Below, one piece after another: positions 7,778 to 52,068 of a stretch of 64,000 nt of DNA. Below the pieces are notes generated by a model, which saw nothing but the letters and a program-made list of their open reading frames with translations, was not told where the DNA came from and did no database searches. Position numbers and translations under genes: made by a program. The number at the start of each line of letters is the position of its first letter. Within the stretch, counting starts at the first letter, position 1. The DNA comes from Embleya hyalina (GTDB lineage Bacteria; Actinomycetota; Actinomycetes; Streptomycetales; Streptomycetaceae), in assembly GCF_003967355.1 (NCBI RefSeq), contig NZ_BIFH01000013.1:740651-804650 (forward strand), in the 5' to 3' direction.

Positions 7778-7956
7778 CGGTCGCGGCCCGACGGCCGCCC
7801 CGCCGGTCCACGTGCCGGGGCGGGGGCGGCCGTCGGGCCGAGCCGCCCGGGGGACGAGGCCGAGCACCGCTCCGAGGCCATGATCGGCGCCGGTTGCCGA
7901 ACCGTGTGGTGGGTACGACGAGCACACATGCAACCGTTCGGTGATCGGAGCCACTC

Positions 7957-8187: not shown

Positions 8188-8345
8188 CCCTCGTACCGGA
8201 CGGGCCCGCCGGGGCGGCCGAATGCCGTCGCGCGTACCGCCGTCCGGGCGAAGCCTCCGCGCGTGGTCGGAATTCGGTGGGTGTCGACGGCGAGTATGGA
8301 GTTCCGCGCCGCGCGGGTCCGCAGTCGGTCTTCACGGGAGGTTCC

Positions 8346-9387: not shown

Positions 9388-9923
9388 GCGGGCCGGACGC
9401 GGGGATCGTCACGCACGGGTGACCGAAGCGCTGTCCCGGGCGATCGAGCCCGCCGGCATCCGGCCGGGGCAGCCCCACATGTGGGTTGCCGCGCCAGGCC
9501 GTGGGGCGGTACGAATGCCGGTGTCCGCTTGCGCGGCGGTGACGTTGCCCGGTGGCACGACACGCGCGTCCCCACCGTTACAGCGAAGTGCCCGGCGCCG
9601 GCGCGGGCTTCGGCGGTACGAGCGCACGCCCCAGCCCCCCGCCGGCCGATGGTTTTCGGTGGGCGGGTTGTTGTAACACTGTCGTTCGGGGCGGGCTGTG
9701 ATGGGTGTGACCAGGGACGACGCGGTGTCGTCGGGGTTTCGGGCGGGGTCGGTCGCGGTGGTTGGCATTCCTTCTCGTGACCATGTCACCGGGCTGTGAC
9801 AGCGGTGTCGTGGTGCGACGACCGGGGTATCGCCCGGGCCGGCGGCTCCGCCATGGTGGTCGAGCAGGCACCGAGGGGTCGAGCGGGTTTCGGCTCCAAC
9901 CACCGGCTATCAAGGGGTCGTTC
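9388..9923. other. 536-base stretch with no supported gene; upstream region of a lipoprotein
   Basis: No frame on either strand has plausible coding composition plus a start signal. A perfect 5-base inverted repeat GTGAC-CAT-GTCAC lies at 9777-9789, 135 bases before the lipoprotein ATG, and TGTGACAG follows shortly after. This could be a regulator site for the downstream gene, but the evidence is slight. Confidence 0.35.
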
Positions 9924-21600: not shown

Positions 21601-23094
21601 CGCCTACGCGCCGACGGCACCGGCCTGGAGTTCGGCGGTCGCGTCGACCAGCAGGTCAAGATCCGCGGATTCCGCATCGAGCCCGGCGAGATCGAAGCCG
21701 TCCTCACCGCGCACCCCGCGGTGGCCCAGGCCGCGGTCGTCGTCCGGGAGAACCACCGCGGCGACAAACACCTCACCGCCCACCTCGTCCCCGCCCGCGG
21801 CGAGCCCGCGACCCCCGCGCAACTGCGCGCGTACAGCCGACGACACCTGCCCGACTACATGATCCCCTCGGCGTTCGTCCTCCTCGAGACGATGCCACTG
21901 ACCCCCAACGGCAAGCCGGACCGCGCCGCGCTGCCCGACCCCGAACACCGCACGAACACCGAGGACGACACCCACACAACCCCACGGACCCCCCACGAAC
22001 GGATCCTCACCGAACTGTTCGCCGAGGTATTGGACCTGCCCGCCGTCGGGGCCGACGACTCCTTCTTCGACCTCGGCGGCCACTCCCTCCTCGCCACCCG
22101 CCTCGTCTCCCGGATCCGCGCCGTCCTCGGCCTCGACATCGCGCTCGGCGCCCTCTTCGAGACACCCACCCCGGCCGGCCTGGCCGCACGATCGGGGACG
22201 GATCGCCCCGGCGGCGCCCTGGAGGTGGTACTGCCGCTGCGCCCGCACGGGACCCGGCCCCCGCTGTGGTGCGTGCACCCCGCGGGCGGTATCGGCTGGT
22301 CCTACGGCGGGTTGCTGCGCCACCTGCCCCCGGACCAGCCCGTGTACGCGCTCCAGGCCCGCGCGCTGAGCCGGCCCGATCCGGTGCCCGCCTCGGTCGA
22401 GGAGATGGCCGCCGACTACCTGGAGGAGATCCGCGCGGTCCAGCCGCGGGGTCCCTACCGGCTGCTCGGCTGGTCCGCCGGCGGACTGATCGCGCACGCC
22501 ATGGCCACCGAACTGGCCGCGCGCGGCGAGCACACGGCGCTGCTGGCCGTGCTCGACGCCTACCCGCTGTCCACGGTCTCCCCCCACGCGTCGACCCTGC
22601 GCGGGGGAGCGGAGCATCTGGCCCTCGTCCTCGACTGCGACCCGGAGTCCTTCGCTCCGCACCGGATCACCTACGACGGGCTCGCCCGGGTGCTGCGCGA
22701 GCGAGAACACATCCTGGCCGCCCTGGAACCGCACCAACTCGCGGCCGTCGCGGCCGTACTGGACCACAACGCGGCGGCGGCGCACGCGTTCACCCCCGGC
22801 GTCTTCGACGGCGACATGCTGCTGTTCAGGGCCGGCGTCGACCGCGCCCCGCACACCCCCGAACCCGCGTCGTGGCACCGGCACGTCGGCGGGCGCATCG
22901 AGGTCCACGAGATCCCGGCCCGACACAACGCCCTGACGCACCCGGACGCCCTCGCTCGCATCGGCCCCGTCCTCGCGTCCCACCTCGACCGGAGCACCGC
23001 GTCCGACCCGACGGACGGACCCGGCACCCCGCATCCCGCACCGCCCACACCCGGTCCGGCCGGACCGCCGACCCTCCTCAGGGAGCCGACATGA
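12655..23094 (+). CDS. Non-ribosomal peptide synthetase, three modules: C-A-T / C-A*-T / C-A-T-TE
   Basis: 3479 residues. TTG 12655 is the start: CGGAGG lies 5 bases upstream. C1 (~30-470; HHLAMDG at 163) resembles the EntF-type starter condensation domain. A1 (~490-1000): P-loop at 648, Lys992; specificity residues D V W C T V L M Y K fit no substrate I know. T1 Ser1046. C2 (HHIAGDG at 1231). A2 (~1565-2045) is degenerate: the P-loop reads [10 protein letters not shown] (1702-1711), the core-8 loop is lost, and Thr2037 replaces the catalytic Lys. T2 Ser2092 is intact. C3 (HH at 2278). A3: P-loop at 2752, Lys3087, residues D A Y F W G V T F K suggest an aliphatic residue (Val/Ile-like, low certainty). 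T3 Ser3144. TE with GWSAGG, Ser3274. No epimerase. C2 and C3 are very alike, suggesting module duplication. ATGA overlap with the MbtH gene implies co-translation. Confidence 0.95.
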
Positions 23095-33351: not shown

Positions 33352-34341
33352 ATGCGCGACGAGGATCTACCGAAACATCTGGGCCGACTCGGCCTTTCCG
33401 ATCGTGAGGCGCTGGTCTACCGGGCGATGCTCGGTACGGGACCGACCGGGACGGCGAACCTGGCCGCCCGCCTGGGGATGGGTCCCGAAGAAGTGGACGA
33501 GTCGGTGGCCCGCCTGGTCGAATTGGGCCTGGCCTCCGCGGCCGGGCCCGCCCCGGCGGCGGTCGTCCCCATCGAACCGAGCATCGGCATCGAACGCCTC
33601 GCGCACGTGCGCTCCGCCGAACTGCGCCAGGCCCAACTGGCGGCGATCGACGCCTATCGCGGCTACCGGCGTTCGGTCCACCCGCAGCAGGCCGGTACCG
33701 ACGACATGATCGAGGTGCTCACCGGGGCACGGATCAAGGAGCGCATCCGCCTCTCCGAGCACACCGCGACCACGGAGGTGCTGCGCTTCGATTCGCCGCC
33801 GTACCACACCGGCGGCGTGTCGAACGAGGTCGAGGAGCGCAACCTCGAACACGGCGTCGCGTATCGGATCGTGTACTCGAAGTCCGCCGTGCAGAACGCG
33901 CATTACTACGAGTGCAACATCAAGCCCTGCATAGCCGCCGGCGAGCAGGCCCGGGTCCTGCCGACCGTGCCCGTGAAGCTGACCATCTTCGATCGGCGAC
34001 TGGCCCTGGTGTCCATGTCGTTCGTCGAGGCCGACATCAACGACTCGCTGCTCATCGTGCGTGCGTCGAGTCTGCTCACCGCCCTGATCGGGCTGTTCGA
34101 GAGTTCGTGGCGGGCGGCCTTCCCGCTGCACCTGGGCGGTCGGGTGCCGCCAGCGCTGCGCCCGATCCACCGCCGCATCCTGGAACTGCTCGGCAGTGGT
34201 CTGACGGACGAGGCCATCGCCGAACTCCTGGGCATCAGCCGCCGAACGTTGTCGCGCAATCTGGAGCACCTCAACAGCAGCGCCGGCTCCACCACCCGCT
34301 TCCAACTGGCGTTGTACGCGGCCCGAAAGGGCTGGATCTGA
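33352..34341 (+). CDS. LuxR-type regulator with TrmB-like N-terminal domain
   Basis: 329 residues. ATG 33352 has AAAGGACGAGG upstream. The N-terminal ~70 residues are a TrmB-like winged helix (LGLSDREALVYRAMLGTGPT). The middle is a phospholipase-D-like/TrmB effector region (EVLTGARIKERIRLSEHT, later LPTVPVKLTIFDRRLALVSM). The C-terminal LuxR helix-turn-helix covers ~265-325 (GLTDEAIAELLGISRRTLSR). This architecture is frequent among Streptomyces regulators, often inside or beside biosynthetic clusters. It converges on the chain-extension operon. It is the best candidate for the pathway-specific regulator of the NRPS-2 block; its signal is unknown. Confidence 0.88.
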   Translation: MRDEDLPKHLGRLGLSDREALVYRAMLGTGPTGTANLAARLGMGPEEVDESVARLVELGLASAAGPAPAAVVPIEPSIGIERLAHVRSAELRQAQLAAIDAYRGYRRSVHPQQAGTDDMIEVLTGARIKERIRLSEHTATTEVLRFDSPPYHTGGVSNEVEERNLEHGVAYRIVYSKSAVQNAHYYECNIKPCIAAGEQARVLPTVPVKLTIFDRRLALVSMSFVEADINDSLLIVRASSLLTALIGLFESSWRAAFPLHLGGRVPPALRPIHRRILELLGSGLTDEAIAELLGISRRTLSRNLEHLNSSAGSTTRFQLALYAARKGWI

Positions 34342-34373: not shown

Positions 34374-35426
34374 TCAGGCGTGGGGCTCGGGTCGGGCGTC
34401 GGCGAGGTTCTTTTCCAGCCGGGTCATGACTTCCGCCATGAAGGTGCCGGTGGTGCCGTGACCGCCCAGGTCCGGGGTGGCGGAGTCGGTGCGCGCCGCG
34501 GCGGCCAGTGCCCGGCGCAGCGAGGCCGCCGCCGGGAGATGGCCGAGATGGTCGAGCATGAGGGCGACCGCCGTCGCCGCGGCGTACGGATTGGCGATGC
34601 CCCGGCCCGCGATGTCGGGCGCGCTTCCGTGTACCGGCTCGAACAGGGCACAGCCGGTCTCCGGGCACACGCTCGCACTGGCGGCCAGCCCGAGTCCGCC
34701 CATGAGGGCCGCACCGATGTCGCTGATGATGTCGCCGAAGAGATTGGAGGCGACGACGCCGTCGTAGGGCGAGGGGTCGCGCACCAGGTGGTAGCAGAAG
34801 GAGTCGACGTACTCCTCGTTGCCCACCAGCTTTGGAAAACGGGCGAGTTCGGCACGGAAGACCTCCTGCCAGAGGCGACCCGTGTGGGGGACCGCGTTGC
34901 TCTTGTGCACCAGGGTGACCCGTTCGCGACCGCTCTCGCTCAGGGTGCGCAGGCAGTAGCGGAGGAACTTCTCGACGGTCTCCCGGGTGTATACGCATTC
35001 GTCGATGGCCACGGCCGGGTGCCTCCCGTGTGAGACGGTGCCGCCGACTCCGGCGTAGAGGCCCTGGGTGTTCTCCCGGAACAGGGCGATCGCCCGGTCG
35101 CTGCCGCGCGGGGTGAAGGGCCGGTGGTTGACGTACAGGTCGAGGCCTCGACGAAGGCCCAGCAAGATGTCGCGACCGTGTGCCATGTCGGGGATCCTGG
35201 GGTCGCCCAGGGCGCCGAGGAGAATGGTGGGGTAGTCGGAGGCGAGCAGGTCGAGCGCGTCGGGCGGCAGGCCGACGCGCTCGGCCAGCCACCGCTCGGC
35301 GCCCCAGTCGAAGATCCGGTACGAGAGGTCCAGTCCGAAGTGCTCGCCGAGGAGTTCGAGAGCGGGCAGGACGGCCGGGACGACCTCGCCGCCGATTCCG
35401 TCCCCGGGAATCACGGCGATCCTCAT
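34374..35426 (-). CDS. Isopropylmalate/isocitrate-dehydrogenase-like oxidative decarboxylase
   Basis: 350 residues, matching the usual length of LeuB/homoisocitrate dehydrogenases. It has the NAD-binding start MRIAVIPGDGIGGEVVP, the substrate-loop HRPFTPRG and FRENTQGLYAG, the Lys of LVHKSNAVPHT, the metal-binding Asp of SNLFGDIISDIGAALMGGLG, and EPVHGSAPDIAGRGIANP for nucleotide binding. It would oxidise and decarboxylate a 3-substituted malate to give a 2-oxo acid one carbon longer than the starting one. ATG overlaps the stop of the fused aconitase gene (ATGA), so it is the last gene of a translationally coupled three-gene operon. The specific substrate cannot be read from sequence. Confidence 0.9.
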   Translation of the reverse strand: MRIAVIPGDGIGGEVVPAVLPALELLGEHFGLDLSYRIFDWGAERWLAERVGLPPDALDLLASDYPTILLGALGDPRIPDMAHGRDILLGLRRGLDLYVNHRPFTPRGSDRAIALFRENTQGLYAGVGGTVSHGRHPAVAIDECVYTRETVEKFLRYCLRTLSESGRERVTLVHKSNAVPHTGRLWQEVFRAELARFPKLVGNEEYVDSFCYHLVRDPSPYDGVVASNLFGDIISDIGAALMGGLGLAASASVCPETGCALFEPVHGSAPDIAGRGIANPYAAATAVALMLDHLGHLPAAASLRRALAAAARTDSATPDLGGHGTTGTFMAEVMTRLEKNLADARPEPHA

Positions 35427-37405
35427 GTCCGCGCTCCGCCGGCGAGCATGTCCTCCACGGAGCTGAGCCGCCCCGCGATGGCGCTCGCCGCGACCACGTA
35501 CGGGGAGGCGAGATAGACCCGGCCGGGTCCGGACCGTCCGGGGAAGTTGCGGTTCTGGGCGCTGACGGTGATTTCGTCGGGCCGCTCCGAGACACCCGGC
35601 CCGGCGTTGATGCAGGCGCCGCAGGAGGGCGGCAGGACGGTGACGCCGACCTGCTCGAAGAGGTCGAGATAGCCGCGTTCGACGGCGTGGTTCAGCACGG
35701 CCTCGCTGCCGACCTGGATGTATGCCCGGACCTCGGCGGGTACCGATCGCCCCTGGTCGCGGGCGAGCCTGAAGACGTCGGCGTACATGTCCATGTCCGC
35801 GGCCTTGCCGCCGGTGCAGGAACCGCCGTACACCTTGTCGACGCGGACGTCCTCGCGCACCGAGGCGAGCGGGACGGCGTTGCGGGGGTCTCCCGGCAGG
35901 GCCACCATGGGCTGGACGGAGCCCAGGTCCACGGTGACGGTGGAGTCGTATCGTGCGCCGGGGTCCGAGGACGGTACGGCGCCGGCGGGAGTCGCCGGAG
36001 TGCGGCGGGCCAGGTGGGCGTGGGTGACGTCGTCGGCTTCGAACAACGCGGTCATGCCCCCCGCCTCCACCGCCATGTTGCACAGGGTGGCGCGTTCGTC
36101 CATGCCGATGGACCCCACGCCGGAGCCGGTGAACAGGAGAACCTTGCCCAGGGTCCGGCTCCCCTCGATCCCGGGGTGGACCAGCAGGCCGAGCATGACG
36201 TCCTTGGCGCAGACGCCCGGGCGCAGTGTGCCGTCGAGTTCGACCCGGACGACGGCCGGCACCTTCACCAGGGTCTCCCGGTTGTACCAGGCGTTGGCGA
36301 TGTCGGTGGCGCCCACCCCGAAGGCCAGGGCGCCGACGGCGCCGCCCGTGCAGGTGTGGCTGTCGGTACCGATGATCACGTCCCCCGGGCGGGCGACGTG
36401 CTCCAGGATGTGGTTGTGACAGATCGCCCGGCTTCCGCCGCCCTCGCGGGGGCCGATGAAGTGTGCGCCGCCGAGTTCGGCGAACTCCCGTTGCCGGACC
36501 CCGAGGTCCTCGACGCGGGCGATCAGCCGGTCACCGTTCTCCCGGCGCCTCAGGACGGGGGCGGCCAGGGAGAGGTGGTCCTGGAAGAAGTAGCAGGTGT
36601 CGGGCTGTTCGAGCCGGGCGTGCGGTCCGAACTGTCGGGTGAACATGCCTGCGGCCATGGGGGTGACGTACTCGTGCGAGAATCGGACGTCCGTCGTGAC
36701 GAAGTACGACTCGCCGACGCTCACCGAGGCGTTCGCGGGGAGCGGGTTGCGCGGCGACAGGGCACGCTGAAGGATCTTCTCCACGACGTTCAGCGGGCGC
36801 GCGGGAGCGAACTCGGGGGTGAGGACCGAGCGTTGGCGATTGAAGCCGAACAGGCCCCCGAGGTCGACGATGGCGCGCTCGATGTTGTTGGCACGTCGGG
36901 TGAACGCGGCGAGCGGCAGTTCCTCGCCGTCGAGAAGGGACTCCAGCACGTCGAAGTCGGTGCAGGTGACGATGCCGACGTTGCGGCAATTCTGCTCGTA
37001 GATGCGCTCGAAGGAGCGGGCGAAGACGACTTCGACGCCGGCGTACTTCTCCGCGTAGACGGCGTGCTCCCGGGAGGAGCCGCAGCCCTTCGCCTCGCCG
37101 CTGACGATGATCCGGGGCGCGAGTGACTTCAGCGCGCCCTCGGCGACCTTCTTGTCCCGCAGTCCCAGGTAGGCGTAGTCGCCGAGTTTCTCGTCGTACC
37201 GGTAACAGCACCAGCCCGGGATGATCTCGTCGGTGGAGATGTTGTTCATCAGCGGCGCGCGCAGGAGTTCGGCGGTGCCGAGCGCCGAATCGCCCGACAA
37301 TTGGTCGGCCACGAGATCGGTGTTCTCGGTCAGGACGAGGACGTTGCCGTGTGGGCCGATCCGGCGCTCCGCGGACTCGTCCCGGGGGTCATTCCGCGGT
37401 CGCAA
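35423..37405 (-). CDS. Fused aconitase-family isomerase with swivel domain at the N-terminus
   Basis: 660 residues joining both halves of an isopropylmalate isomerase/homoaconitase-type enzyme in reversed order. Residues ~20-205 are the small (LeuD-like) swivel domain: NNISTDEIIPGW, GEAKGCGSSREHAVYAE, YEQNCRNVGIV. Residues ~215-655 are the large (LeuC-like) domain with the iron-sulfur ligand motifs GTDSHTCTGGAVGALAFG and PPSCGACINAGPG. Most bacteria keep these as two proteins, or fuse them with the large domain first. It would move the hydroxyl of a 2-alkylmalate via an alkene. The start at TTG 37405 overlaps the preceding gene by 17 bases and has only GGGCGG upstream, so the exact start is uncertain. 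Confidence 0.9.
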   Translation of the reverse strand: MRPRNDPRDESAERRIGPHGNVLVLTENTDLVADQLSGDSALGTAELLRAPLMNNISTDEIIPGWCCYRYDEKLGDYAYLGLRDKKVAEGALKSLAPRIIVSGEAKGCGSSREHAVYAEKYAGVEVVFARSFERIYEQNCRNVGIVTCTDFDVLESLLDGEELPLAAFTRRANNIERAIVDLGGLFGFNRQRSVLTPEFAPARPLNVVEKILQRALSPRNPLPANASVSVGESYFVTTDVRFSHEYVTPMAAGMFTRQFGPHARLEQPDTCYFFQDHLSLAAPVLRRRENGDRLIARVEDLGVRQREFAELGGAHFIGPREGGGSRAICHNHILEHVARPGDVIIGTDSHTCTGGAVGALAFGVGATDIANAWYNRETLVKVPAVVRVELDGTLRPGVCAKDVMLGLLVHPGIEGSRTLGKVLLFTGSGVGSIGMDERATLCNMAVEAGGMTALFEADDVTHAHLARRTPATPAGAVPSSDPGARYDSTVTVDLGSVQPMVALPGDPRNAVPLASVREDVRVDKVYGGSCTGGKAADMDMYADVFRLARDQGRSVPAEVRAYIQVGSEAVLNHAVERGYLDLFEQVGVTVLPPSCGACINAGPGVSERPDEITVSAQNRNFPGRSGPGRVYLASPYVVAASAIAGRLSSVEDMLAGGART

Positions 37406-38651
37406 TGATCCGCCCTATCTGTTCGTCGGTGAGGGGACCCCGATTGACCCTCGAGCCGTCCAGGATCTTTTTGAGGAGTGACGCGTCGGTGCTGTCGTAG
37501 CCGTGCACGGTCAGCCAGTAGCGGACGTTGTTGGTGCCCGACGCCTGATCGATCAGCACTTCCTGTTCGCGGCCGAGGTAGCCGGCCGGGACGCTGGAGT
37601 ACACGCTGTCCTTGACGAGTGTGTTGCCCTTGAGGTGGGCCTTGAGGATCGCGGAGGCGTGGACACCGGCGCTGGTCTTGAAGACGTCCCGGCCCAGCGC
37701 GGGGTAGTTCTGCGGGATGTCCACGTCGAGCACGTGCGCCGCGTATTCGCCGTACTGTCTGAGCGCCTTCAGGTCGTACGGCCCGTGTCCGTCGAGATGA
37801 CTGTTGATCATGAGCTGGTCCAGAGAGGCGTTCCCCGCGCGCTCGCCGATTCCCAGGATGGTGCCGTGCACCCGGGTGCAGCCCAGGGCCAGCGCCGTCA
37901 GGGAGTTGGCCAGGGCGAGTCCCCGGTCGTTGTGACCGTGCCACTCCAGGTCGACGGGCCGCTGCCGGTCCCGGAAGTACCGAGAGGTCCAGTGGAGCAG
38001 CGCGGCCGTACCCTCCGGGCGGGCCGCTCCGACGGTGTCGCACAGGGTCAGCCGGGTCACTCCGGAATCGATCGCGGCGTCGTATACCTGCCCGAGGACT
38101 TCCGGGGTGCATCGCACCGCGTCCTCCAGAACCAGGACGAAGTCGACCTCGCCGTGCCCGCAGGCCGCGGCCGAATCGACGATGTTGCGCTGGATGCCGG
38201 CGATGCTCCAGTCCTCGACGTACTGCCGGATGGGGCTCACGCCGACGAAGACGTAGGCGTCCACCGCGGTCTCGGCCCGCGCCGCGATCTCGCGGATCGC
38301 GGCGATGTCGGCGGGGTGGGTGCGGCCGGCGTAGCCCGGGACGATCGGGTGTCCGGAAGCGATGATGTGGCGGGCCAGGGCCACGCATTCACCGAGCGTT
38401 TCCGGGTCGGCGCCGGGGAAACCCAGGTCGGCGGAGCGCACCCCGGCGCGCGCCATGTGGTCGACCAGGGCCCTTTTCTGAGCCGGCGAAGGATTTCTGA
38501 TGTGGGGTGCCTGCACCCCATCGCGGAGGGTTTCGTCGAAGAACGTTCCGGAGTACGCCGGAGGGTGCGGGGCGGCGTCGACGACCATGGTGTTCCAGTT
38601 GAACCAGATGTCGGGGCTCGGATATGCGCTCCGGCCGGTCGTGCCGTTCAA
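37389..38651 (-). CDS. Isopropylmalate/homocitrate-synthase-like acyltransferase (DRE-TIM metallolyase)
   Basis: 420 residues. TTG 38651 is the start: AAAGGAGGT lies 5 bases upstream. The DRE-TIM signature is [10 protein letters not shown], the metal ligands are HGHND ([14 protein letters not shown]), and the C-terminal catalytic region follows ([20 protein letters not shown]). There is no LeuA regulatory domain, so it should escape leucine feedback. This family condenses acetyl-CoA with a 2-oxo acid and includes homocitrate synthases, Re-citrate synthases and the phosphonomethylmalate/phosphinomethylmalate synthases. It is first in the chain-extension operon and is transcribed away from NRPS-2. 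No phosphonate gene is present, so an ordinary 2-oxo acid is the simpler substrate. No aminotransferase gene is in the operon. Confidence 0.9.
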
Positions 38652-38924
38652 TTCGACCTCCTTTGCGATGGGGCGGGATCTTCGGCGGGACCGGGGTGGA
38701 CACTCGGGAAGCCGGAGTATGCACCGTGACAGGATCCGGGATGCCCCTCGGGGGAATCAATGCTTCGAGACGTACCGGCCATTGCGCCCGCCGAGTACGA
38801 AGTGGACGGACCTCGTCCGCTTTTCCGGATCCGTCCTGTTACCGGGACAGGGCCGGTTGCGTCGAATTCACTTTCTCGCATCATGTTTCCAGGGTCCGAC
38901 AGCCGGTCGGGGGAGCCGAGTTCC

Positions 38925-38954
38925 GGAATACGGGATTCCGAATTCGGGGAATCC
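38925..38954. promoter_or_regulatory. Nested inverted repeats, operator candidate
   Basis: GGAAT-N5-ATTCC (38925-38939) overlaps GGATTCC (38933-38939) paired with GGAATCC (38948-38954). The centre CCGAATTCGG (38938-38947) is itself a perfect palindrome, and TTCCGGAA lies at 38921-38928. Repeated GGAAT half-sites in the divergent promoter region suggest cooperative binding by a dimeric regulator. Confidence 0.5.
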
Positions 38955-39020
38955 GCATGGGCGGAGAGCACGACCGCGGGCAGCCCGTGGCAGGTGGAAC
39001 GACAGTGGAGCGCGCACGTT

Positions 39021-39046
39021 CGTGGTGATCTCGCGATCTCACCACG
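39021..39046 (+). promoter_or_regulatory. Leader hairpin upstream of NRPS-2
   Basis: CGTGGTGA (39021-39028) and TCACCACG (39039-39046) are exact complements around a 10-base centre and are followed by CTCTTTTC. It lies 48 bases before the NRPS-2 start. It could be an operator or a weak attenuator-type terminator in the leader. Confidence 0.45.
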
Positions 39047-39093
39047 CTCTTTTCAGCCTGTTCCGACGCGTTTTTACGAGGGAGCCGAATCCG

Positions 39094-42000
39094 GTGCGTT
39101 CCATTGGCGTTTCACAAGCGCAGGAGAGCCTGTGGCTGGCTCAGAAGATCGCGCCGGATGTGCCGAACATCCCCGGGTCCAGGTGGATCGTCGTGGGCGA
39201 TGTCGACGTGGAACTGCTGCGTGCCGCGCTGCGCGTCGTCTTCCACGAGAACAGCACCGCACGGGTGAACTTCCGGCAGTTCGGGGACGAGTTGCGGCAA
39301 GTGGTCCGCGAGGGCGACACGGACACCTGGACGCCCTCCTTCCACGACGTGAGCGCTGCCGACGACCCCGAATCGGCGGCCCACGCGTGGGCCGACGCCA
39401 TCGAGCGAGAGCCGGTCGACCTGGAACACGACCTCCTGTTCCGGGCCGGGATCGTCCGCGTGTCGGACTCGCGTCACCTGGTGTTCCTCGCCGCCCATCA
39501 CATCGTCGCCGACGGCTACACGTTGACCCGGCTCCTGCCGTTCCGAACGGCGGAGTGCTACCGGGCCCTGAAGCAGGGCGCGCCGATACCGGAGCGCTCC
39601 CACGGCGCACCGGAGCTGATCCGCGAGGAAGACCTACGCCACCGGAACTCTCCGCAGTTCGCCGAGGACGCCGAATTCTGGCGAACGCGTCTGCACGACG
39701 CGCCCGAACCGCTACGGCTGCCGGGCCGGCGCAGCGCCGGCCGCCCCTCGGTGCTGCACCACGAACTGGCCGTGCCGACACGGGAGACGGACGCGTGGTT
39801 CGAGGCCGCCGCGGCCATCGGCCTGCGCATGCCCGCCTTCCTGACCGCCGCGGCCACCGTCTTCTTCCGGCACGTGGGCGGGCGCCGGGACTTCACCTTC
39901 TCCATGATGGCCCTCGGCCGCACCAAGGCCACGAGGGACTTCTACGGTTCCTACTCGACCTCCCTGCCCTTCCGCGTGCACGCCCCGTTGGCCACGCGGT
40001 TCCGAGACTTCGCGCACACGGTCTCCGACGAGCTGTGGCAGGTCGGGCGGCACTCCACGCACCAGGTCTCCGACATCCGTTCGGCGGCCGGGAGCCCCGA
40101 CACGGGGTCGGTCGCCGGCCCCTTCGGCGTCACCCTCAGCATCCTCCCCTTCGTCGCACCGGTGGTCGACTACGCGGGTGCGAGCGCGCACGGGCAACCC
40201 GGTTCCTCCTGGGGCGCCTTCGACGACCTGCACTTCGCCGTCTACTACGACAGCCGCGCCAAGAGCGGCCTGCACATCCGGGTGGACGCCAACAGCACCC
40301 TGTACAGCGCGGACGACGTGCGTCGTTTCGCCGCCGGCCTGGTCGCCTGCATCGGCGGCACGGCACGCCACCCGCAGGCCGCGATCGGCTCGATGGACCT
40401 GCTGGGGCCGGGTGCGCGCGAGCAGGTGCCGGGCATCGCCGACGGCACGGCGGCCGAGCTGCCCGAGGTGACCGTTGCGGAACTGTTGGCAGGCCCGGCG
40501 GCGGCGCATCCGGACGCGGTCGCGGTGCTCTTCGAGGATCGGCGCGTGACCTACGCCGAGCTGGCGGCGCGCTCGGGCCGCCTCGCCCGGGAGCTGACCG
40601 GCCGGGGCATCGGCCCGGAGACCCTGGTGGGGCTGGCGCTGCCACGCTCGATCGACCTGATCGTGGGCATGCTGGCCGTGCTGGAGTCGGGGGCCGCCTA
40701 TCTGCCGATCGATCCCCGGTACCCCGGCACCCGACTGGACCTGATCCTGGCCGACGCGCGGCCCGCGCTCGTGCTCACCGACGCGGACACGGCATCCGTC
40801 CTCCCACGGACCGGCATACCGCGTCTGCTGTTCGGTGACGTCGACTTCACGAGCACGGCCCGGGAGCCGGCTCCCGCGCCGATGCCGGTACGGCCCGCGA
40901 ACGCCGCGTACGTGATGTACACGTCGGGCTCCACCGGCACGCCCAAGGGCGTGACCCTCACCCACCGCGACATCGTCAACGGCGTGCTGCGCCTGCGGGA
41001 CGAGGTCGGTATCGACGCGGGCACCCGTACCCTCGCCGGAACCTCGATCAACTTCGACGTCTCCGTCTTCGAGGTGATCACCACCCTGGCCGCGGGGGGC
41101 ACGGTCGAGGTCGTCCCGGACGTGCCGACCATCGCCGAACGCGGTGGTTGGCGAGGGGGTGTGATCAGCACCGTCCCGTCCGTCCTGACCGCACTGCTGG
41201 ACCGGTGCGGCGACGCGCTGCGGGCCGACGTCGTCGTGCTGGCGGGCGAGGCGCTGCCCGCCGCACTCGTACGGCGCACACGCGAGGCCATTCCCGGCGC
41301 CCGCGTGGTCAACGCGTACGGCCAGACCGAGTCCTTCTACGCCACCACCCACACCGTCGGCGAGGACCGGCCCGGAGCGGTGACCGCTCCGATCGGTGTG
41401 CCGCTGGGCAACATGCGCGCCTACGTGCTCGGCCCGGGTCTGGCGCCCGTACCGCCGGGCATGCCGGGCGAGTTGTACGTGGGCGGCCACGTCGCGCGCG
41501 GATACCGTGACCGCCCCGGCCCGACCGCCGAGCGCTTCGTGGCCGATCCCTACGGGCCGCCCGGTGCGCGCATGTACCGTACCGGCGACCTCGCCCGCCA
41601 AAACGCCGACGGGCACCTGGAATACCTCGGCCGCACCGACGCCCAGGTCAAGATCCGCGGCATCCGGGTCGAGCCCGGCGAGATCGAGGCCGTGCTGACC
41701 GCACACCCGGGCGTTGCGCAGGCCGTGGTCGTCGTCGGCGCCAACCGTTCCGGAGAGCGGCAGTTGGTGGGGTACGCGGTGCCCGTCGGCGCCGGCCCCT
41801 CCGGTCTCGGCGCCGCGGGCGGCCTCGGCGAACCGCTCCTCGACCTGGAGGGGACCGTGTCGCCGCGAGAACTGCGCCGATTCGCGGCCGCCAGGCTGCC
41901 CGAGTTCATGGTGCCGTCGGTGTTCGCGTTGGTCGACCGGCTCCCGCTGACCCCGAACGGCAAGCTGGACCGCAAGGCCCTGCCCGAACCGGAGGTCACC

Positions 42001-45000
42001 GTCGGTGCCTACCGCGCCCCGGGCACTCCCGTCGAGGAGGTGCTGGCCGGGGTGTACGCGGAGGTACTGGGTCTGGAACGGGTCGGCGTCGAAGACGACT
42101 TCTTCGCCGTCGGCGGCGACAGCATCCGCTCGATCCAGGTCGTCTCGCGAGCCAAGGCACAGGGCGTCGAGATCACACCCCGGCAGATTTTCGAATACCG
42201 CACCGTGGCCGAACTCGCCGAGGTGGCCGGCGACGCGCGCCACACGCCGGTGCTCGCCGAGTTGCCCGGGGGCGGCGTGGGCTTCACGCCACTGCTCCCG
42301 GCGGCCCACCACGTGCTGCGCGCGGGCGGCGGCCACGGCCGGCTCGCCGCGACGACGACCGTCGATCTGCCCCTCGGGATCGACGAGGCCGGTCTGGTCG
42401 CGACGCTGGCCGCGGTCGTCGACCGGCACGACATCCTGCGCTCGACCCTGGTGAACGGCGACGAGGCGACGGGGCTCGACGTGGCCCCGCCCGGGGCCGT
42501 CGATGTGGCGGGGCGCATCCGCCGTGTCCCCGTCGACGGCGATCGGGGCCGGGATCGGTCCGACCGGGCGCGCGAGGAACCGGACGACGCGGCCGACCGA
42601 CTGGCCCCGGAAGCCGGGGTGATGGCCCGGTTCGTGTGGTTCGACGCGGGCCCGCGAACCGCGGGTCGCCTGAGCATCGTCCTGCACCACCTCGTCGTCG
42701 ACGACGTCTCCTGGCGCATCCTGCTCGCGGACCTGGCCGCCGCCTGGCGGCAGGTCCGCGACGGCCGCGCCCCGTGCCTCGCCGAGGTCGCCACGTCGGT
42801 ACGCCGCTGGGCGCACGCCCTCACCGAGGAGGCGGCTTCGCCCCGGCGCACCGGCGAACTCGCCCTGTGGCGACGCGTGGTCACCGGACCCGACCCCGAC
42901 CTGGGCCCGCGCCCCTTCGACCCGGCCGTCGACGTGACGTCCACGGTCGGGTACGTACACCTGGAACTGCCCGCGCCCTGTACGCGGACCCTGCTGACCA
43001 CCGTGCCCACCGCGTTCCGCGGCGGTGTCGACGTCGGTCTGCTCACCGCACTCGCACTGGCGGTGGCCCGGTGGCGCGAGCGTCGCGGCATCGCCGAGAC
43101 CTCGCTCCTGCTGCGGGTCGAGAGCCACGGGCGGGAGGAGACGACCGTGCCGGGCGCCGATCTGTCCCGTACCGTGGGCCGGCTCACCGGCGTCTTCCCC
43201 GTCCGCCTCGACGTGCACGGGATCGACCTGGACGAAGCGCTCGAGGGCGGGTCGGCCGCCGGCGCCGCCGTCAAGGCCGTCAAGGAACAACTCGCGGGCA
43301 TCCCGGACAACGGCATCGGATACGGGCTGCTGCGCCACCTCAACGCCGAGACCGGCGAAGCCCTGCGCCGGTACTCCACCGGGCAGATCGCCTTCACCTA
43401 CGCGGGCCGGTCCGCGGCGGCCGGGAGCACGTCCGACGACCTCGACGGCCTCGGCTTCACGCCGAGCGCGGGCACCACGGGCCCGATCCCCGAGCCCGAT
43501 CCGGACATGCCCGCACCCGCGTCGCTGGACATCGACGTCCACGTCGACGAATCGGCCCAGGGTCCGTGCCTGAAGGCCAGGATCGGCTTCCCCGAGTCCC
43601 TGCTGTCCCGCCGTGACGTACAGGACCTGACGGACCTGTGGCGCACGGCGCTGGAGGCGCTCGCCGACCACGGCAGCCGCCCCGACGCCGGCGGGCCGAC
43701 CCCGTCCGACACCGCCCTCGTGGACATCGACCAGGCCGAACTGGACCTGTGGCAGGCGCGGTACGGAAGGCTGATCGACGTCTGGCCGTTGACCCCGATG
43801 CAGTCCGGTCTGCTGTTCCACACCATGTTCACCGGTGCCGGGTCCTTCGACGCGTACCACATGCAGCTCACCTTCCACCTGTCCGGCGAGGTGGAGCCGG
43901 AGCGCATGCGCGCGGCCGGGCAGGCCCTGCTCGACCGGCATCCCAACCTCGGCGCGGCCTACCCCGCGAACAGGTCGGGCGAGTGGCGCCAAGTGGTGCC
44001 GGAGCGGGTGGAACTGCCCTGGTGCCACCTGGACTTGAGCACGCTCGACGCGCCGCACCGGGACGCGGAACTGAAGCGCTTCCTGGCCGCCGACCACAGC
44101 GCGTACTTCGATCCGGCGACGCCGCCACTGCTGCGGCTCTCCCTGGTCGAACTGGCGGCGGACCGCTGGGAACTGGTCCTGGCGGCCCATCACATACTGT
44201 TCGACGGCTGGTCCGTGCCGCTCCTGATGAAGGAGTTGGCACGTCTGTACGCGGCGGCCGGCGACGGCACGGCGCTGCCCGCGGTGCGTGGCTACCGCGA
44301 CTTCCTGTCCTGGTTCGCGCGGCAGGATCGGCAGGCGGCGGCCGACGCCTGGGCCCGGGAACTGGCCGGGATCGAGGAGCCGACCCTGCTGGTCCCCGAC
44401 GCGCCCGGAGACGGGCACGGCACGGGGATCGAGCTGATCGAGGTACCCCTGTCGGCGCAGGCGGCGCGGGACGCGGCCCGGACCGCGGCCGAACTGGGAG
44501 TCACGTCCAGCACCCTGCTCCAGGGTGCCTGGGCGGTGCTCCTGGCCGGGCTGACCGGGCGTCAGGACGTGGTCTTCGGCACCACCGTCTCCGGACGGCC
44601 GCCCGAACTCCCCGAGGTCGACGCGATGGTGGGCCTGTTCATCAACTCGCTTCCGGTGCGCGTCGACTGCGCCCCCGGCCGGACGCCGCGCGAGATCCTG
44701 ACCGGACTGCACCGCCGACAGGGCATCCTGCAGGACCACCAGCATCACGGCCTCCTCGACATCCAACAGGACCTCGGCCTGAGCACCCTGTTCGACACGA
44801 TGGTGGTCCTGGAGTCGTACCCCGTCGACGGCGCGGCCCTCGGCGAGGCGACATCGGCCGCCGGAATCCGGATCACCGGCCTAAGCCCGCTCACCGGTGT
44901 GCACTACCCGATGGCGGTCGTCGCCCTCGCCGAACCGCACCTGAAGGTGGCCGTCCAGTACCAGACCCACCTCTTCGACCGCGAGCGCGCGAGCGGGATC

Positions 45001-48000
45001 GCCGCCGCGTACGCGAGGATCCTGCGCCGTCTCACCCAGGACCCCGACACACCGGTCGGCGCGATCGACATCGTCACCGGCGCCGTCCGCGACCGGCTCC
45101 TGACCGAAGGGAACGACACCGCGACGGCACTGCCGGAGAGCACCCTCGGCGAACTGTTCACCGCGCGGGCCGCCGAGGCCCCCGACGCCGTCGCCGTCGT
45201 CGACGGCGAACGGCAGCTCACCTACGCCGAGTTGGAGACCCGCTCCAACCGGCTCGCCCGGGTCCTCGCCGCACGAGGCGTGGGCCCGGACACGCCGGTC
45301 GGGCTCGCGCTGCCGCGTTCGGCCGACCTGATCGTCGCCACGCTCGCGATCCTCAAGGCCGGGGGCGCCTATGTACCCCTCGACCCGGACTACCCGGCCG
45401 AACGACTCACGTTCATGCTGCGCGACGCCGCCCCCGCCATGATCCTCACCGACACCCGGCTCGCCGCGGAACTCCCGCCGGACATCCGCCCGTTCCTGAT
45501 CATCGACGAGCCCGCCGTCCGACAGGAGATCGCGCGGTCCGCCGATCGCGCCCCGCGACGACGGCACCATCCCGACCAACTGGCGTACGTCATGTACACA
45601 TCCGGCTCCACCGGCACCCCGAAAGGCGTCGCCGTCACACACCGCGCCGTGGCGAGCCTCGCCCTGGACCGCCGCTTCGCGAACGGCCCGCACGAGCGGA
45701 TCCTGATGCACTGCGCACAGGCCTTCGACGCCTCCACCTACGAGCTGTGGACCCCGCTGCTGCGCGCCGGCACCCTCGTCCTCGCCCCGCCCGGTCCCCT
45801 GGACACCACCACACTCGCCGATCTCGTCGCCGCCCGGGGGGTGACGCTCGCGTGCTTCACGGCGGGACTGTTCAAGGTGGTGGCCGAGAGCGCGCCGGAG
45901 AGCTTCGCGGGCCTGCGCGAGATCCTGGTCGGCGGCGACGTGCTGTCCCCGACCGCCGTGGCCCGGGTCGCCGCCGCCTGCCCCGACACCGCGATCTTCA
46001 ACGCGTACGGACCCACCGAGACCACCAGCTTCTCCGTCTACCACCCCGTTCCCGCCACCGCTGATGTACCCCACACGCTGCCCATCGGCCGGCCGAGGGG
46101 CAACACCCGCGCCTACGTCCTGGACTCGGCCCTGCGACCCGTGCCGCACTCGGTCCCCGGCGAGCTGTATCTCGCGGGCACCGGCCTGGCCCGCGGCTAC
46201 CTCGGGCGCCCCGCCCGGACCGCCCGGTCCTTCGTGGCCTGCCCGTTCGGGCCCGCGGGGGAGCGCATGTACCGCACCGGCGACATCGTCGTGCGTACCC
46301 CCGACGGGCGGCTCGAGTTCCGTGGCCGCGCCGACTCGCAGGTGAAGATCAACGGCTTCCGCGTCGAACCGGGGGAGGTCGAGGCCGCCCTGAGCGCCCA
46401 CCCCGGCGTCGCCCAGTCCGCCGTGACGATCGTCGCGGACCGCACCGGCGAGCGACGCCTGGTCGGCTACGTGGTGCCCGGCGCCGACCTTCCCCCCGCC
46501 GTCGACGAGGCACAGCGGATCGAGGGCTGGGAGCAGATCTACGACCGGGTCTACGCCGAGCCGCGTGCCCCCTGGGGGGAGGACTTCTCGGGCTGGGAGT
46601 CCAGCTACACGGGCCGGCCGATCCCGGCGGCCGACATGCGGGAGTGGCGGGCCGCGACGGTGGACCTGATCACCGCGGGCGAGCCGCGCCGGGTGCTCGA
46701 ACTCGGCGTGGGCTCCGGCCTGTTGATGTCGGCGATCGTCGCACGGGTCGACGAGTACTGGGGCACCGACCTGTCCGTCGAGGCCATCGAACGGCTCGCC
46801 GGCGAGGTCGAGCGGGCCGGGTACGCCGATCGGTGCACGCTGCGCCGGCAGCCGGCCGACGATGCGAGCGGCCTGCCGCACGGCCGCTTCGACGTCGTCG
46901 TACTCAACTCCGTCGCGCAGTACTTCCCCGACGCCGACTACCTGGACCGGGTGCTCGCCCGGGCACTGCCGCTGCTCGCGCCCGGCGGACGGCTGCTCGT
47001 CGGCGACGTGCGCAACGCGGCCACGCTGTGGCTGTTCCGCGCCGGAACGCAGCGCGCCCGGCGTCCGGACGACTCCCCGGCGGCGGCCCGCACCGCGGTC
47101 CGGCGCGCCATCCTCCTGGAACCGGAACTGGCCCTGGACCCCGAGTGGTTCACGCGTTGGGCCCGGCGGCACGGCGTCGCGAGCGTGGACGTCGCGCTCA
47201 AGCCCGGCCGAATCCACAACGAACTCACCCGGCACCGCTACGACGTCGTGCTGCGCCCGGATCCGGTCGCCGGCGCCCTCACCCTCGGCGACGCTCGGCG
47301 TGTGCCGTGGGGCCCGGAGGCAGCGGGTCCGGACGACCTGGACCGGCTGTGGCGCACCCGCGACGGCGAGGGCGCGCTGGTCGTCACGGGCATCCCCAAC
47401 GCCCGGCTCGGCGCGGAGGCGGCACTCGCGGCGGAGCCGGCGCCGACCGGTCCCGCGACCGGGAGCCCGACCCGCCCCGCCGCCGGGCACACCGACGCCG
47501 TCGGCGCGGCCCTGGACCCGCACGACCTGCTCGTCTGGGCGGCCGAACGCACCCTGACCGCCCGGCTCACCTGGTCGGCGACAGGAGCCGAACGCTTCGA
47601 CGCCGTGCTCCTCCCACGCGGCCACCGGCCCATCGCCCTGTGCCCCGCGACCACCGCACGCCCCGATCGGGACCTGGCCACCGACCCGTCCACCGCGTCC
47701 CGCATCGACGTGCTCGTCGGCTCGCTCCGCGGCGGGCTCGGCGAGCGACTGCCCGCCCACCTGGTCCCCGCCGCCGTCATCGCCGTCGCCGCACTGCCCC
47801 TGACACCCCACGGAAAGCTGGACCGGCGAGCCCTGCCCGTCCCCGACTTCGCGCCGACAGCCACCGGGCGGGCCCCGCGCACCCCGCTGGAGGAGTTGTT
47901 GTGCGGGCTGTTCGCCGAGGTGCTGGGCCTGGACCGGGTCGGTATCGACGACGACTTCTTCGACCTGGGCGGCCACTCCCTGCTGGCGACCCGTCTGGCC

Positions 48001-51000
48001 GGCAGGGTCCGCTCCGTCCTGGGCGTCGAACTGTCACTGCGCGTCCTGTTCGCGGCCCCCAAGGTCGCCGAACTCGTCGAGCACCTGCCGCACGACCCCC
48101 GTACCCGCACCCCGCTGCGCCGTGCCACACCGCGCCCCGAGACCGTGCCGCTCTCCTTCGCACAGCGCCGCCTGTGGTTCCTGGACAAGTTCGAGGGCGG
48201 ATCGAGCACCTACCACTCGCCGTTCCCGCTGCGCCTGACCGGCCGACTCGACGCGGCCGCGCTCGCCGAGGCACTTCGCGACGTGGTGACGCGCCACGAG
48301 AGCCTGCGCACCCTGTTTCCCGAGGACGCCGCGGGCGAGCCCCACCAGTACGTCCTGGCCGCCGGGGAGCCCACCATCGACCTGCCCGTCGTCGACGTCG
48401 CGTCTCGGGACCTGGACGAGGTTCTGGCCTCGGCGGCGTCCCGCCCCGTCGACCTGGCCACGCAGATCCCGATCCACGCCACGCTCCTGCGCCTCGCCGC
48501 CGAGGAACACGTCCTCCTCCTGATGATTCATCACATCGCCGCCGACGGAGAATCCCTCGCGCCGTTGGCCCGGGACCTGTCCGCCGCCTACACCGCCCGC
48601 CTGCGCGGCGAGGCGCCGCGTCGGCGCGAACTGCCCGTACAGTACGCCGACTACACGTTGTGGCAGCACGAACTGCTCGGCTCCCACGACGACCCCGACA
48701 GCCTCCTGACCGCGCAACTCGACTACTGGAAGGGAGAGCTCGCGGGTCTGCCGCAGCCTCTTCCGTTGCCCACCGACCGCCCGCGCCCGCTCGTCGCGAG
48801 CCACCGGGGCGACGTCGTGGAGTTCGCCATCGACCCGCGCACGGCCGCCGCCGTCGAGGAACTGGCCCGCGGCCGCGGCGCCACCGCGTCCATGGTGTTC
48901 CAGTCCGCGCTCGCCGTCCTGCTGCACGCGCTGGGCTCCGGTGACGACATCGCCATCGGTTCCCCCATCGCCAACCGCACCGACGACAACCTCGCCGACC
49001 TGATCGGCTTCTTCGTCAACACCTGGGTCCTGCGCGTGCGGATGGTGGGCAACCCCGGGTTCCCGGACCTGCTCGATCAGGTGCGCGGCAAGTCGCTGGA
49101 CGCCTACGACCACCAGGACCTGCCCTTCGAACGCCTGGTGGAGGTCCTCAACCCCGAGCGCTCCACGTCCTACGCGCCGCTGGTGCAGGTGATGCTCGCC
49201 TGGCAGAACTTCACGCGTGAGAACGTCGTGCTGCCCGGGTTGCGGGTGGCCTTCGAGCCGCTGCGCGGCCGCGTCGCCAAGTTCGACCTGATCTTCAACC
49301 TCGCCGAGTCGGCCGGCCAGGGCATCGTCGGCCACCTCGAATACGCCACCGACCTGTTCGACCGGGACACCGCCGAACGCCTCGCCGACCGCTTCGTGCG
49401 GGTCGTGGAACAACTCGTGGCCGATCCCGCGCGGCGCGTCGGCGCGGTGGACGTACTGGAACCGGGGGAGCGACTGCGCCTGAGTGCCTGGTCGCGCGCG
49501 GGCGGCCCCGGCGGGCCCGTCCCCGACCTGACCCTCGCGCAGGCCTTCGAGGCGACGGCGGCGGCGCACCCGCGGCGCCCCGCGGTCACCGGGGGAGCAC
49601 GAACGCTCGACTACGCGGAGCTGAACGCCGCCGCGAACCGCCTGGCCCGCCTGCTGCGCGGGCACGGCGCGGGGCCCGGCCGGCCGGTGGCGGTGGCGCT
49701 GCCCCGCTCGGCCGAACTGGTCGTCGCGCTGCTCGCGGTCCTGAAGACGGGCGCCGCGTACCTGCCGGTCGACCCGGGCCACCCGGTCGACCGCATCGCG
49801 TACATGCTCGGCGACGCGAATCCCGGGCTCGTCGTCACCGACGCCTCGTTCGCCGACCGATCGCCGTCGGGGCCGCCGTGCGTGGTCGTCGGGGGCCCCG
49901 GCTCCGACGCGGCGCTCGCCGCGCTGCCGGGCCACGACCTCGACGCGGACGAGCGCGGCACGCACGGCCCCGACGACGCGGCCTACGTCATCTACACCTC
50001 GGGCTCCACGGGCCGTCCCAAGGGCGTCGTGGTCACCCACCGCAACGTACTCGCCCTGATGACCCGGACCCGGGACCTGTTCGACTTCGGCGCCGACGAC
50101 GTGTGGACGATGTTCCACTCGCCCGCCTTCGACTTCTCGGTGTGGGAACTGTGGGGACCACTGCTCCACGGCGGGCGCCTGGTGACGGTGCCGGAGCACA
50201 TCGGCCGGTCGCCGGACGACTTCCTCGCGCTGCTCGTGCGCGAGGGGGTGACGGTGCTCAATCAGACCCCGTCCGCCTTCTACCAGCTCATCCGCGCGGA
50301 CCGGGAGAGCCCCGCGACCGGTCGCGGAGCGGCCCTGCGCACGGTGGTGTTCGGTGGCGAGGCATTGGATTCGGCGCGTCTGGCCGAATGGTACGAGCGG
50401 CACCCCGCCGACGCCCCGCGGTTGGTGAACATGTACGGCATCACGGAGACCACCGTGCACGTCACCCACGGCCCGCTCGATCCCGCGCTCGTACCCGGCG
50501 GCGCGGGCGGTGCGATCGGTGTCGGCCTGCCCGGACTGGACGTGCGCCTGCTCGACGGGGCCCTGCGGGCCGTACCCGCGGGGGTCGTGGGGGAGTTGTA
50601 CGTGGGCGGCGGCCAGCTGTCCCGTGGCTATCTGAACCGTCCCGGACTGACGGCGGCGCGGTTCGTCGCCGACCCGTACGGGCCGCCCGGCGGTCGCCTC
50701 TACCGCTCCGGCGACCTGGCCCGCTGGACGCGGGCAGGACGGCTCGAATACGTCGGGCGCTCGGACGACCAGATCAAGCTCCGCGGGTTCCGGATCGAAC
50801 CCGGCGAGGTCGAGGCGGCACTCCTCGCGCGTGCCGAAGTGGCCGACGCACGGGTCGCCGTGCGCGTGGACGCGGCGGGGGACAAGGCGCTGATCGCCTA
50901 CGTGGTTCGGGCCGGCGCCCGGGATCTGCCCGAACCGGTTGTGCTGCGCGCCGAGTTGCGCAGGGTACTGCCCGACCACATGGTCCCCGCCGCCTTCGTG

Positions 51001-52068
51001 TCGCTGGACTCCATCCCGCTGACCGGAAACGGCAAACTGGACTACGCGGCCCTGCCCGCGCCCACGCGCACCCCGTCGGGCACCGCCGCCGCCGGGCCCT
51101 CCGGGGCCGTGGAACTGCACGTCGTCCGCGCGTGGAGCCGCGTCCTGGACCTCGACCAGGACGGCGTGGGCGTCGACGACGACTTCTTCGACGCCGGGGG
51201 AGACTCGTTCAAGGCGGTCGCCCTGGCCCGTGCGATCGGCCGGGGGCTGCCCGTGGTCGAGGTCTTCAAGAACCCCACCCCCCGTCGACTGGCCGCATGT
51301 CTGGTCTCGACGGCGGACGCATCCGGGCTGTTGCACCGCCTGACCCCCGAACCCGAGGACGGGACGGTCCCGGAGCACACCGTCGTCTGCATCCCGTACG
51401 GCGGCGGCAACGCCACCGCGTACCGGGCACTCGCCCGGGAGCTTCCCGAACGCGCCGACCTCTGGGCCGTCGAGCTGCCCGGACACGACCCGGTGCGACC
51501 CGACGAGCCCCTGCGGCCCTGGGCCGAGACCGCCGAGCTGCTGGCGAAGGAGATCGCCCGGACCGTGCGCGGCCGGTACACGCTCTACGGGCACTGCGCG
51601 GGCACGCTCCTCGCCGTCCGCGTGGCCCGCCTCCTCGAAGAGCGCGACGCCGCCCCCTCGCGGATCGTCCTGGGCGCCGCGTTGCCAGGGGGCGCCGAGG
51701 CCGACGCGGCCGACGCCCCGCGGGCGGACGTGGCCGAGGACGAGCTCTACGCCACGCTGCACGCGCTGGGCGGCTTCTCCGGAGCCCTGGACGACACGGA
51801 TCGCCACCGCGTCCTGACCGTCGTACGCCACGACATGGCCGAGGCCACGCGGTTCCTGCGCGAGACCGCGACGGACCGGGAGCGGCTGCGCACCCCGATC
51901 CGCGCCGTGATGGGCAGCGCCGACCCGCTCACCGAGGGCTACACGACGGGCTACCGCGCCTGGGAGCGCTACGCCCACGACGTGACCCTGCACGTGATCG
52001 ACGGCGGAGGACACTACTTCGTCAAGGACCACGCGAAGGAGGTGTCCCACGTGGTCACCGGCGAATGA
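39094..52068 (+). CDS. Non-ribosomal peptide synthetase, three modules: C-A-T-E / C-A(nMT)-T / C-A-T-TE
   Basis: 4324 residues from GTG 39094 (GAGGGAG upstream). C4 (HHIVADG at 135) is EntF-like, so the chain starts with an acyl or aryl group supplied elsewhere. A4: P-loop 610, Lys957, residues D V F S V A A Y A K, unassigned. T4 Ser1010. E (HHLVVDD at 1198, VSWRIL, NGIGYG) should give a D-residue. C5 (HHILFDG at 1699) has the [13 protein letters not shown] start of D-accepting C domains. A5 (P-loop ~2169, Lys2908; D A Y C L G A S F K, probably aliphatic) carries an inserted N-methyltransferase (~2480-2830; VLELGVGSG at 2534). T5 Ser2962. C6 (HH at 3146). A6: P-loop 3635, Lys3981, D F W N V G M V H K, the threonine code. 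T6 Ser4038. The TE resembles type II thioesterases but has GHCAG with Cys4168, Asp4277, His4307. Confidence 0.95.

Follow-up and report, generated by a model that had tools for sequence, protein, structure and literature searches.

A cysteine thioesterase of the ObiF1/SulM class behind a threonine module in Embleya, and its possible role in releasing a peptidyl threonine β-lactone

The accounts of four-membered ring closure by non-ribosomal peptide synthetase (NRPS) thioesterases (TEs) on which we draw describe ObiF and SulM, both from Pseudomonadota. In the open-licence literature, we recognised no described actinobacterial NRPS that ends in threonine and a cysteine TE; SQ 26,517 is a threonine-type β-lactone of Bacillus. 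The TEs of ObiF1 and SulM are reported to combine a Cys nucleophile with a catalytic Asp in the loop after strand β7, known as position II (PMC6668435, PMC11298585), and among the structurally characterized NRPS TEs compared in 2024 only these two are listed with both features (PMC11298585). The TE analyzed here, at the end of a synthetase that we call NRPS-2, is a real and conserved domain of this known class with few characterized members; what is new is the host group, the module in front of it, and the predicted product.

The window, by which we mean the whole 64,000-nucleotide stretch of DNA analyzed, spans positions 740651–804650 of contig C13 in the 12.05 Mb, 78-contig genome of a soil actinobacterium. 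Its closest named relative, judged by the TE, is Embleya scabrispora DSM 41855 (83% identity), and the matching genome, G391, belongs to the window's own genus. NRPS-2 lies in an open frame at 38500–52068 of the forward strand, with the TE in frame within it. Since the first condensation domain opens at 39109, the likely start is GTG 39094, which gives a 4324-residue protein (39094–52068) whose order by Pfam and motifs is C-A-T-E-C-A(nMT)-T-C-A-T-TE. Pfam accounts for four condensation-type domains, three A domains, three carrier domains, one methyltransferase core, and one TE, and NRPS-2, as its domain order reads, is a self-contained three-module line.

All features of NRPS-2 are encoded on the forward strand. 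The N-terminal condensation domain (39109–40425, PF00668) occupies a starter position and is followed by A1 (motif at 40909, code DVFSVAAYA) with carrier T1 (FFAVGGDS at 42100; together 40909–42123), and by a motif at 42685–42714 that we take to mark the epimerization (E) domain of module 1. Module 2 contains a methyltransferase core (46663–47022) recognised by Pfam methyltransferase families, which we read as an N-methyltransferase because it is placed inside the A domain. Module 3 consists of the condensation domain C3 (48142–49473, Pfam), A3 (49546–50634), whose code reads DFWNVGMVH, and carrier T3 (motif FFDAGGDS, 51184–51207). The TE (51379–52044) follows this last carrier domain in-line, is not a standalone protein, and matches the Pfam Thioesterase family at 79.5 bits against a cut-off of 26.4. 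Its nucleophile, Cys4168 (TGC, 51595–51597), sits in GHCAG (residues 4166–4170 counting from GTG 39094), and the triad is completed by Asp4277 at position II, in ADPLT (51919–51933), and by His4307, in GGGHYF (52003–52020). The original prediction had named this cysteine, both partners, and a preceding threonine-code module, all of which are found, with Asp and His in register at the predicted positions; the TE start it proposed, 51365, is out of frame, and 51328 was used instead.

The best PDB sequence match of the window TE is ObiF1 (E 1.7e-35), and the next is a type II TE (1.3e-18). An AlphaFold2 model built from a 22-row alignment (mean pLDDT 91.0, pTM 0.90) superimposes best in VIA-align on ObiF1 (Z 32.9, rmsd 1.9 Å, 240 aligned residues) and then on the SulM TE (Z 29.9, 2.0 Å, 230 aligned), followed by BorB (Z 26.2), other type II TEs with lower scores, the NocB TE (21.1), and AB3403 (20.4); Foldseek agrees in returning ObiF1 and the SulM TE as its first two matches. 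The window triad aligns to Cys1146/Asp1254/His1284 of ObiF1, and position I, occupied by Gly1173 in ObiF1, is Ala. The features that define the ObiF1/SulM class are thus present in the window TE, namely an in-line location, the Cys of GxCxG, Asp at position II, and the nearest fold, and the Thr code supplies, from sequence alone, a last residue with a β nucleophile. Sequence and model together support membership of the window TE in this class.

The main tree (IQ-TREE, 52 rows) includes nine standalone type II TEs, RifR being absent, and separates them at 100/100 from the in-line TEs, a set that takes in ObiF1, SulM, and the window TE. The same split appeared in an earlier tree that lacked SulM and RedJ. 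The window TE falls inside a 100/100 group of six orthologs, which joins two of five single-module Cys TEs (L010, L017) at a weak 83/76 and then the other three together with a group marked by the code DMYNFGLIH, again weakly (90/65). ObiF1 and SulM fall in the other branch of the in-line clade (91/80) and are not sister to the window TE; long branches underlie this placement and that of L077 and L078. The tree therefore supports the ObiF1/SulM class but no particular nearness to ObiF1. An editing type II TE is ruled out by the 100/100 split and by the fold. The kinship with the ObiF and sulfazecin Cys TEs suspected at the outset is thus confirmed by sequence, fold, and tree, and the tree that the original prediction proposed, with ObiF1, SulM, and type II TEs, puts the domain outside the editing enzymes. 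Its further impression of a type II TE fused to the line fits the class, as the ObiF1 and SulM TEs have their Asp where type II TEs have it; in our tree the in-line TEs separate from the standalone enzymes. A grouping with type II TEs would in any case be compatible with a strained ring, because the ObiF1 and SulM TEs, which have the type II position of Asp, cluster with type II TEs in the tree of the SulM report (PMC11298585).

The A3 code, DFWNVGMVH, is by its letters a threonine code: DFWNVGMVHK is tabulated for Thr (PMC9113097), and a second source lists DFWNIGMVHK and DFWSVGMVHK under Thr (PMC12283262). Among the matches listed, a Thr code directly precedes a GHC[AV]G TE in all six genomes with an NRPS-2 ortholog, namely the window's, E. 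scabrispora (G391 and G394, treated as one genome and counted once), a third genome of the same genus (G392), S. typhae, S. sp. NRRL B-1347, and S. aureocirculatus. Retention of Cys in six of six genomes places it beyond chance. Another genome of the genus, G393, gave no match to NRPS-2 at 1e-40. The G392 ortholog (L074) is spread over three frames, with breaks at about 9123–9150 and 13937–13949 that reflect assembly errors or decay.

The same pairing, DFW[SN][VI]GMVH followed by a Cys TE, is found in five of five single-module C-A-T-TE proteins (L043, L044, L046, L048, L049) from five genomes of the same family, whose TEs are 43–48% identical to that of the window; Pfam confirmed the domain order for L044 and L048. 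Genes that resemble, by eye, KASIII, SDR, and zinc-dehydrogenase enzymes adjoin L048 and L049 (about 6680–9590) and possibly make an unusual acyl group, and L044 has an AsnB-like gene in place of this set.

As a control, we picked 40 Pfam TEs in ORFs of more than 1200 residues from 11 of 13 genomes searched. An upstream A code could be read for 26 of them, and every one of these has GxSxG; the other 14 lack a readable NRPS code, and L186, one of the 14, is the NRPS-2 TE of S. typhae. The TE of NRPS-1, the second synthetase in the window, likewise uses Ser (GWSAGG at 22468). Elsewhere in the same genome, a second Thr-terminated NRPS (L190, 4981–12342, ~2450 residues) carries the same Thr code and ends in a GWSTG Ser TE, so threonine release there uses another TE class; its neighbors look, by eye, like iron-siderophore transport genes and an esterase. 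ORFs of 2440–2530 residues with the L190 Thr code are also present at L160, L169, L170, and L173.

Relatives were gathered by searching three genome samples (391, 394, and 394 genomes) for matches to the window TE, with up to 30 loci per search and, in most genomes, seven scored candidates, and the resulting collection therefore leans towards this TE. At least 14 of 394 family genomes, the window's included, hold a window-like TE at E 1e-45 or better, and at least 30 of 394 class genomes do so at 1e-28. The pseudomonadotal relatives L077 and L078 came from a plasmid search, and L039–L042 from a single scan of genome contigs. Among the matches listed, the nucleophile is Cys in 58 and Ser in nine of 67 distinct places, counted as places and not as independent events (65 of 84 rows plus the window and L110, after leaving out 14 duplicate or double-fetched loci and five standalone type II TEs). 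The codes before the 58 Cys TEs are Thr (11), Ser-type (15), Cys-type (1), DMYNFGLIH (7), other (18), and unread (6), so that 27 of the 52 readable cases have a Thr, Ser, or Cys code and 18 of 52 another one; the assignments to Ser, Cys, Asp, Asn, and Orn are our own reading, under which several of the 18 look Asp-, Asn-, or Orn-like. Cys is kept in all 11 Thr-code cases among the places examined. Eight GHS[SA]G TEs follow the code DIWQSTADD, the ninth Ser TE (L033) follows another, and the last code tends to be common to closely related TEs. The many Cys TEs behind other residues weaken the step from Cys to β-lactone: many of those with other codes could not make β-lactones unless the residue were β-hydroxylated, and several are unfit. 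Cys as a sufficient mark for a β-lactone is ruled out by these varied codes and by the BulbE TE.

Several relatives have features of their own. The Cys TEs of L012–L016, L018, and L020, which are related to one another, follow A domains whose code, DMYNFGLIH, is presumably Cys-like. L085 and L110 carry tandem TEs, GHCAG and then immediately GHCLG; the 1.5 kb upstream gave no match to the Thr A domain. In NRPS proteins at three loci of the window's own genome, L054 (7210–15225, C28), L055 (3058–11550, C16), and L056 (5668–11550, C38), and likewise at L050, L051, and L053, a TE of the class, with Cys or, in L053, Ser, has a tail of 467–518 residues after it in the same ORF; Pfam identifies the tail as an MFS transporter in L050, and the other tails are similar by eye.

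A homocitrate/isopropylmalate-synthase-like gene (37389–38522, reverse strand, start provisional) diverges from NRPS-2 and matches TIGR02146 at 130.9 bits against a cut-off of 413.55. On the same strand are genes for a fused aconitase-like protein with small and large subunits (35423–37345, start provisional) and an isopropylmalate/homoisocitrate-dehydrogenase-like enzyme (34374–35426), both with NCBIfam matches below cut-offs, and a possible HTH regulator (33352–34341, forward strand) was picked out by eye and has no NCBIfam family. The synthase, aconitase, and dehydrogenase genes, which adjoin NRPS-2 in Embleya and S. aureocirculatus, are likely a 2-oxoacid elongation set. Homophenylalanine and 2-aminoadipate were considered as products of this operon and dropped, as the NCBIfam matches of all three enzymes fall below cut-offs. 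The synthase-like gene stands beside NRPS-2 in other genomes too. S. typhae (L084, 1795–3400) has a dehydrogenase-like gene and a synthase fragment beside NRPS-2, with no aconitase match there, and S. sp. NRRL B-1347 gave no close synthase; the operon is therefore not essential to the line.

NRPS-1 (ORF 12655–23094) is about 16 kb from NRPS-2, with unrelated-looking genes between, and its first C domain found no match above 49% in six other genomes searched. A single line made of both synthetases was rejected, since NRPS-1 does not recur alongside NRPS-2 in those genomes. The second A domain of NRPS-1, at 17749, is without the usual TSGSTG..PKG motif and may be degenerate. The target of obafluorin is threonyl-tRNA synthetase (ThrRS), and a second ThrRS was considered in a search for a resistance gene, which found none. 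The second copy, ~617 kb from the window in its own genome, occurs in six of six ortholog genomes, two of five single-module genomes, and 71 of 121 family genomes, and self-resistance through ThrRS was dropped as evidence because the copy is this common in the family.

The A1 code, DVFSVAAYA, matches the opening nine letters of HmtL-A1, and the ortholog of S. sp. NRRL B-1347 reads DVFSVGPYA, as does KtzH-A1; both HmtL-A1 and KtzH-A1 are reported to activate piperazic acid (PMC5031334, PMC9866976). The NRRL B-1347 genome has a further A domain of the piperazic-acid kind. The A2 code, DAYFLGASF, differs between the Embleya and Streptomyces orthologs. A piperazate synthase homolog (PDB 9ebk, E 7.6e-101) is encoded on contig C14, outside the NRPS-2 cluster, and is adjoined by a divergent N-hydroxylase-like gene whose best NCBIfam match is below cut-off. 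The pair is present in six of seven genomes searched, and G393, without NRPS-2, has a synthase-type gene with no hydroxylase beside it. G395, G397, and G079 have further NRPSs whose codes are of the piperazic type, and the pair therefore need not serve NRPS-2. In G396, a single ORF (L118, 139–2193) joins parts that resemble, by eye, ornithine hydroxylase and piperazate synthase. The predicted product of NRPS-2 is an acyl-D-piperazyl-(N-methyl-aminoacyl)-threonine, in which the monomer identities, the N-methylation, and the acyl cap are inferred.

In the mechanism we propose, module 1 would load piperazic acid (Piz) and epimerize it to D-Piz, module 2 would load and N-methylate one residue, and module 3 would load threonine, with the linked 2-oxoacid elongation operon perhaps supplying a monomer or the acyl group. 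The TE would take acyl-D-Piz-(NMe-aa)-Thr from T3 onto Cys4168 by transthioesterification, a step we propose because of the TE class, and an ObiF1-like pocket would let the Thr β-hydroxyl attack the thioester to give a peptidyl threonine β-lactone. The domain order, the Thr and Piz codes, the Cys/Asp(II)/His triad, the fold class, and the conserved Thr–Cys pair are read from sequence or model; ring closure extends them by analogy, and we put release of a β-lactone by NRPS-2 at a probability of about 0.5. Four-membered closure is the best reading because both solved enzymes closest to the window TE in fold produce rings of this size and because the terminal Thr supplies a suitable nucleophile. 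The contrast with L190, where the same Thr code precedes an ordinary Ser TE, also speaks for it. The C1146S variant of ObiF1 is reported to turn mostly to hydrolysis, which gives a reason to keep Cys, and loss of Arg1190 to lower ObiF1 activity about 10-fold (PMC6668435). The window TE has Val at the Arg1190 position, which counts against the β-lactone, as do the varied residues in front of Cys TEs, the large ring made by BulbE, the distance from ObiF1 in the tree, the lack of a fused MbtH domain, and the resistance-gene search that found none.

A macrolactone or cyclic oligomer is a rather unlikely outcome, in which the Thr hydroxyl would attack the thioester of another chain, as happens in enterobactin and bacillibactin, or another nucleophile would close a larger ring. 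A terminal Thr and a starter-position C domain suit such a release, and the BulbE TE, itself a Cys TE, is reported to make a 15-atom ring (PMC11536411), but Asp is at position I in BulbE and EntF and at position II here, and the other Thr-terminated NRPS of the genome, siderophore-type by its neighbors, has an ordinary Ser TE. Release by simple hydrolysis would give a linear peptide acid and make the Cys a habit of the lineage that has no consequence; it would fit the occurrence of Cys across many relatives with varied last residues and of Ser in nine of the 67 places within the clade. We consider it unlikely, since replacing Cys by Ser is what turns ObiF1 (PMC6668435) and BulbE (PMC11536411) to hydrolysis in the reports on these enzymes. 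The unbroken retention of Cys behind the Thr code argues in the same direction.

Acyl transfer, in which the Thr-terminated chain would pass to a different carrier protein or to a hydroxyl on a separate molecule, is decidedly improbable, although shuttling by such enzymes has precedents, SyrC being a Cys shuttle. LgnA, a type II TE, is described as shuttling Thr between carriers (PMC8748450) and the FrsA TE as moving acyl β-hydroxyleucine onto a macrocycle (PMC7794379); LgnA, however, is a standalone Ser enzyme (PMC8748450), no acceptor gene common to the ortholog neighborhoods was seen by eye, and NRPS-1, the nearby synthetase, does not travel with NRPS-2.

The peptidyl threonine β-lactone reading can be widened, tentatively and at somewhat less than even odds, to an actinobacterial NRPS family of multi- and single-module lines that make N-acyl or peptidyl threonine β-lactones, the member described here making a Piz-containing tripeptide β-lactone; relatives with a Ser code and a Cys TE, some with an MFS-like exporter, may make serine β-lactones. 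If a conserved actinobacterial threonine branch exists, it offers a genome-mining handle for covalent β-lactone inhibitors. Because the same genome has a Thr module with a Ser TE, the Cys/position-II class becomes testable as a predictor of ring size.

Among known systems, NRPS-2 is most like ObiF1, its best match in sequence and fold, with which it shares GHCAG, Asp at position II, no acid at position I, the DPLT and GGHYF motifs, and a β-hydroxy amino acid in the last module. The two TEs are only 35% identical, and NRPS-2 differs from ObiF in its three modules, where ObiF has one, in a final Thr where ObiF has β-OH-p-NO2-homoPhe, in the lack of a fused MbtH domain (the ORF ends right after the TE), and in Val in place of Arg1190. 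The SulM TE, the second-best fold match, also has Cys, Asp at position II, and a tripeptide-sized product, but its QCN (Gln-Cys-Asn) motif is replaced by HCA in NRPS-2, and the last code is that of Dap in SulM and of Thr here. Type II editing TEs (BorB, RedJ, RifR, YbtT) share the overall fold and Asp at position II, aligned in BorB and RedJ, whereas they are standalone, use Ser, and form a separate clade at 100/100. Thr-terminated synthetases of the griseobactin/DhbF type resemble NRPS-2 in the Thr code of the last module; L190, which we compare with them, differs in its ordinary GWSTG Ser TE. The trilactone TE of EntF has a Ser nucleophile where NRPS-2 has Cys. The Asp of EntF is reported at position I (PMC6668435), as is that of the BulbE/AB3403 Cys TEs (PMC11536411, PMC11298585), whereas that of NRPS-2 is at II. 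Finally, the A1 code links NRPS-2 to the piperazic-acid NRPSs of himastatin, kutzneride, and aurantimycin, although those lines are described as longer and as giving products of the cyclic hexapeptide type (PMC5031334, PMC9866976).
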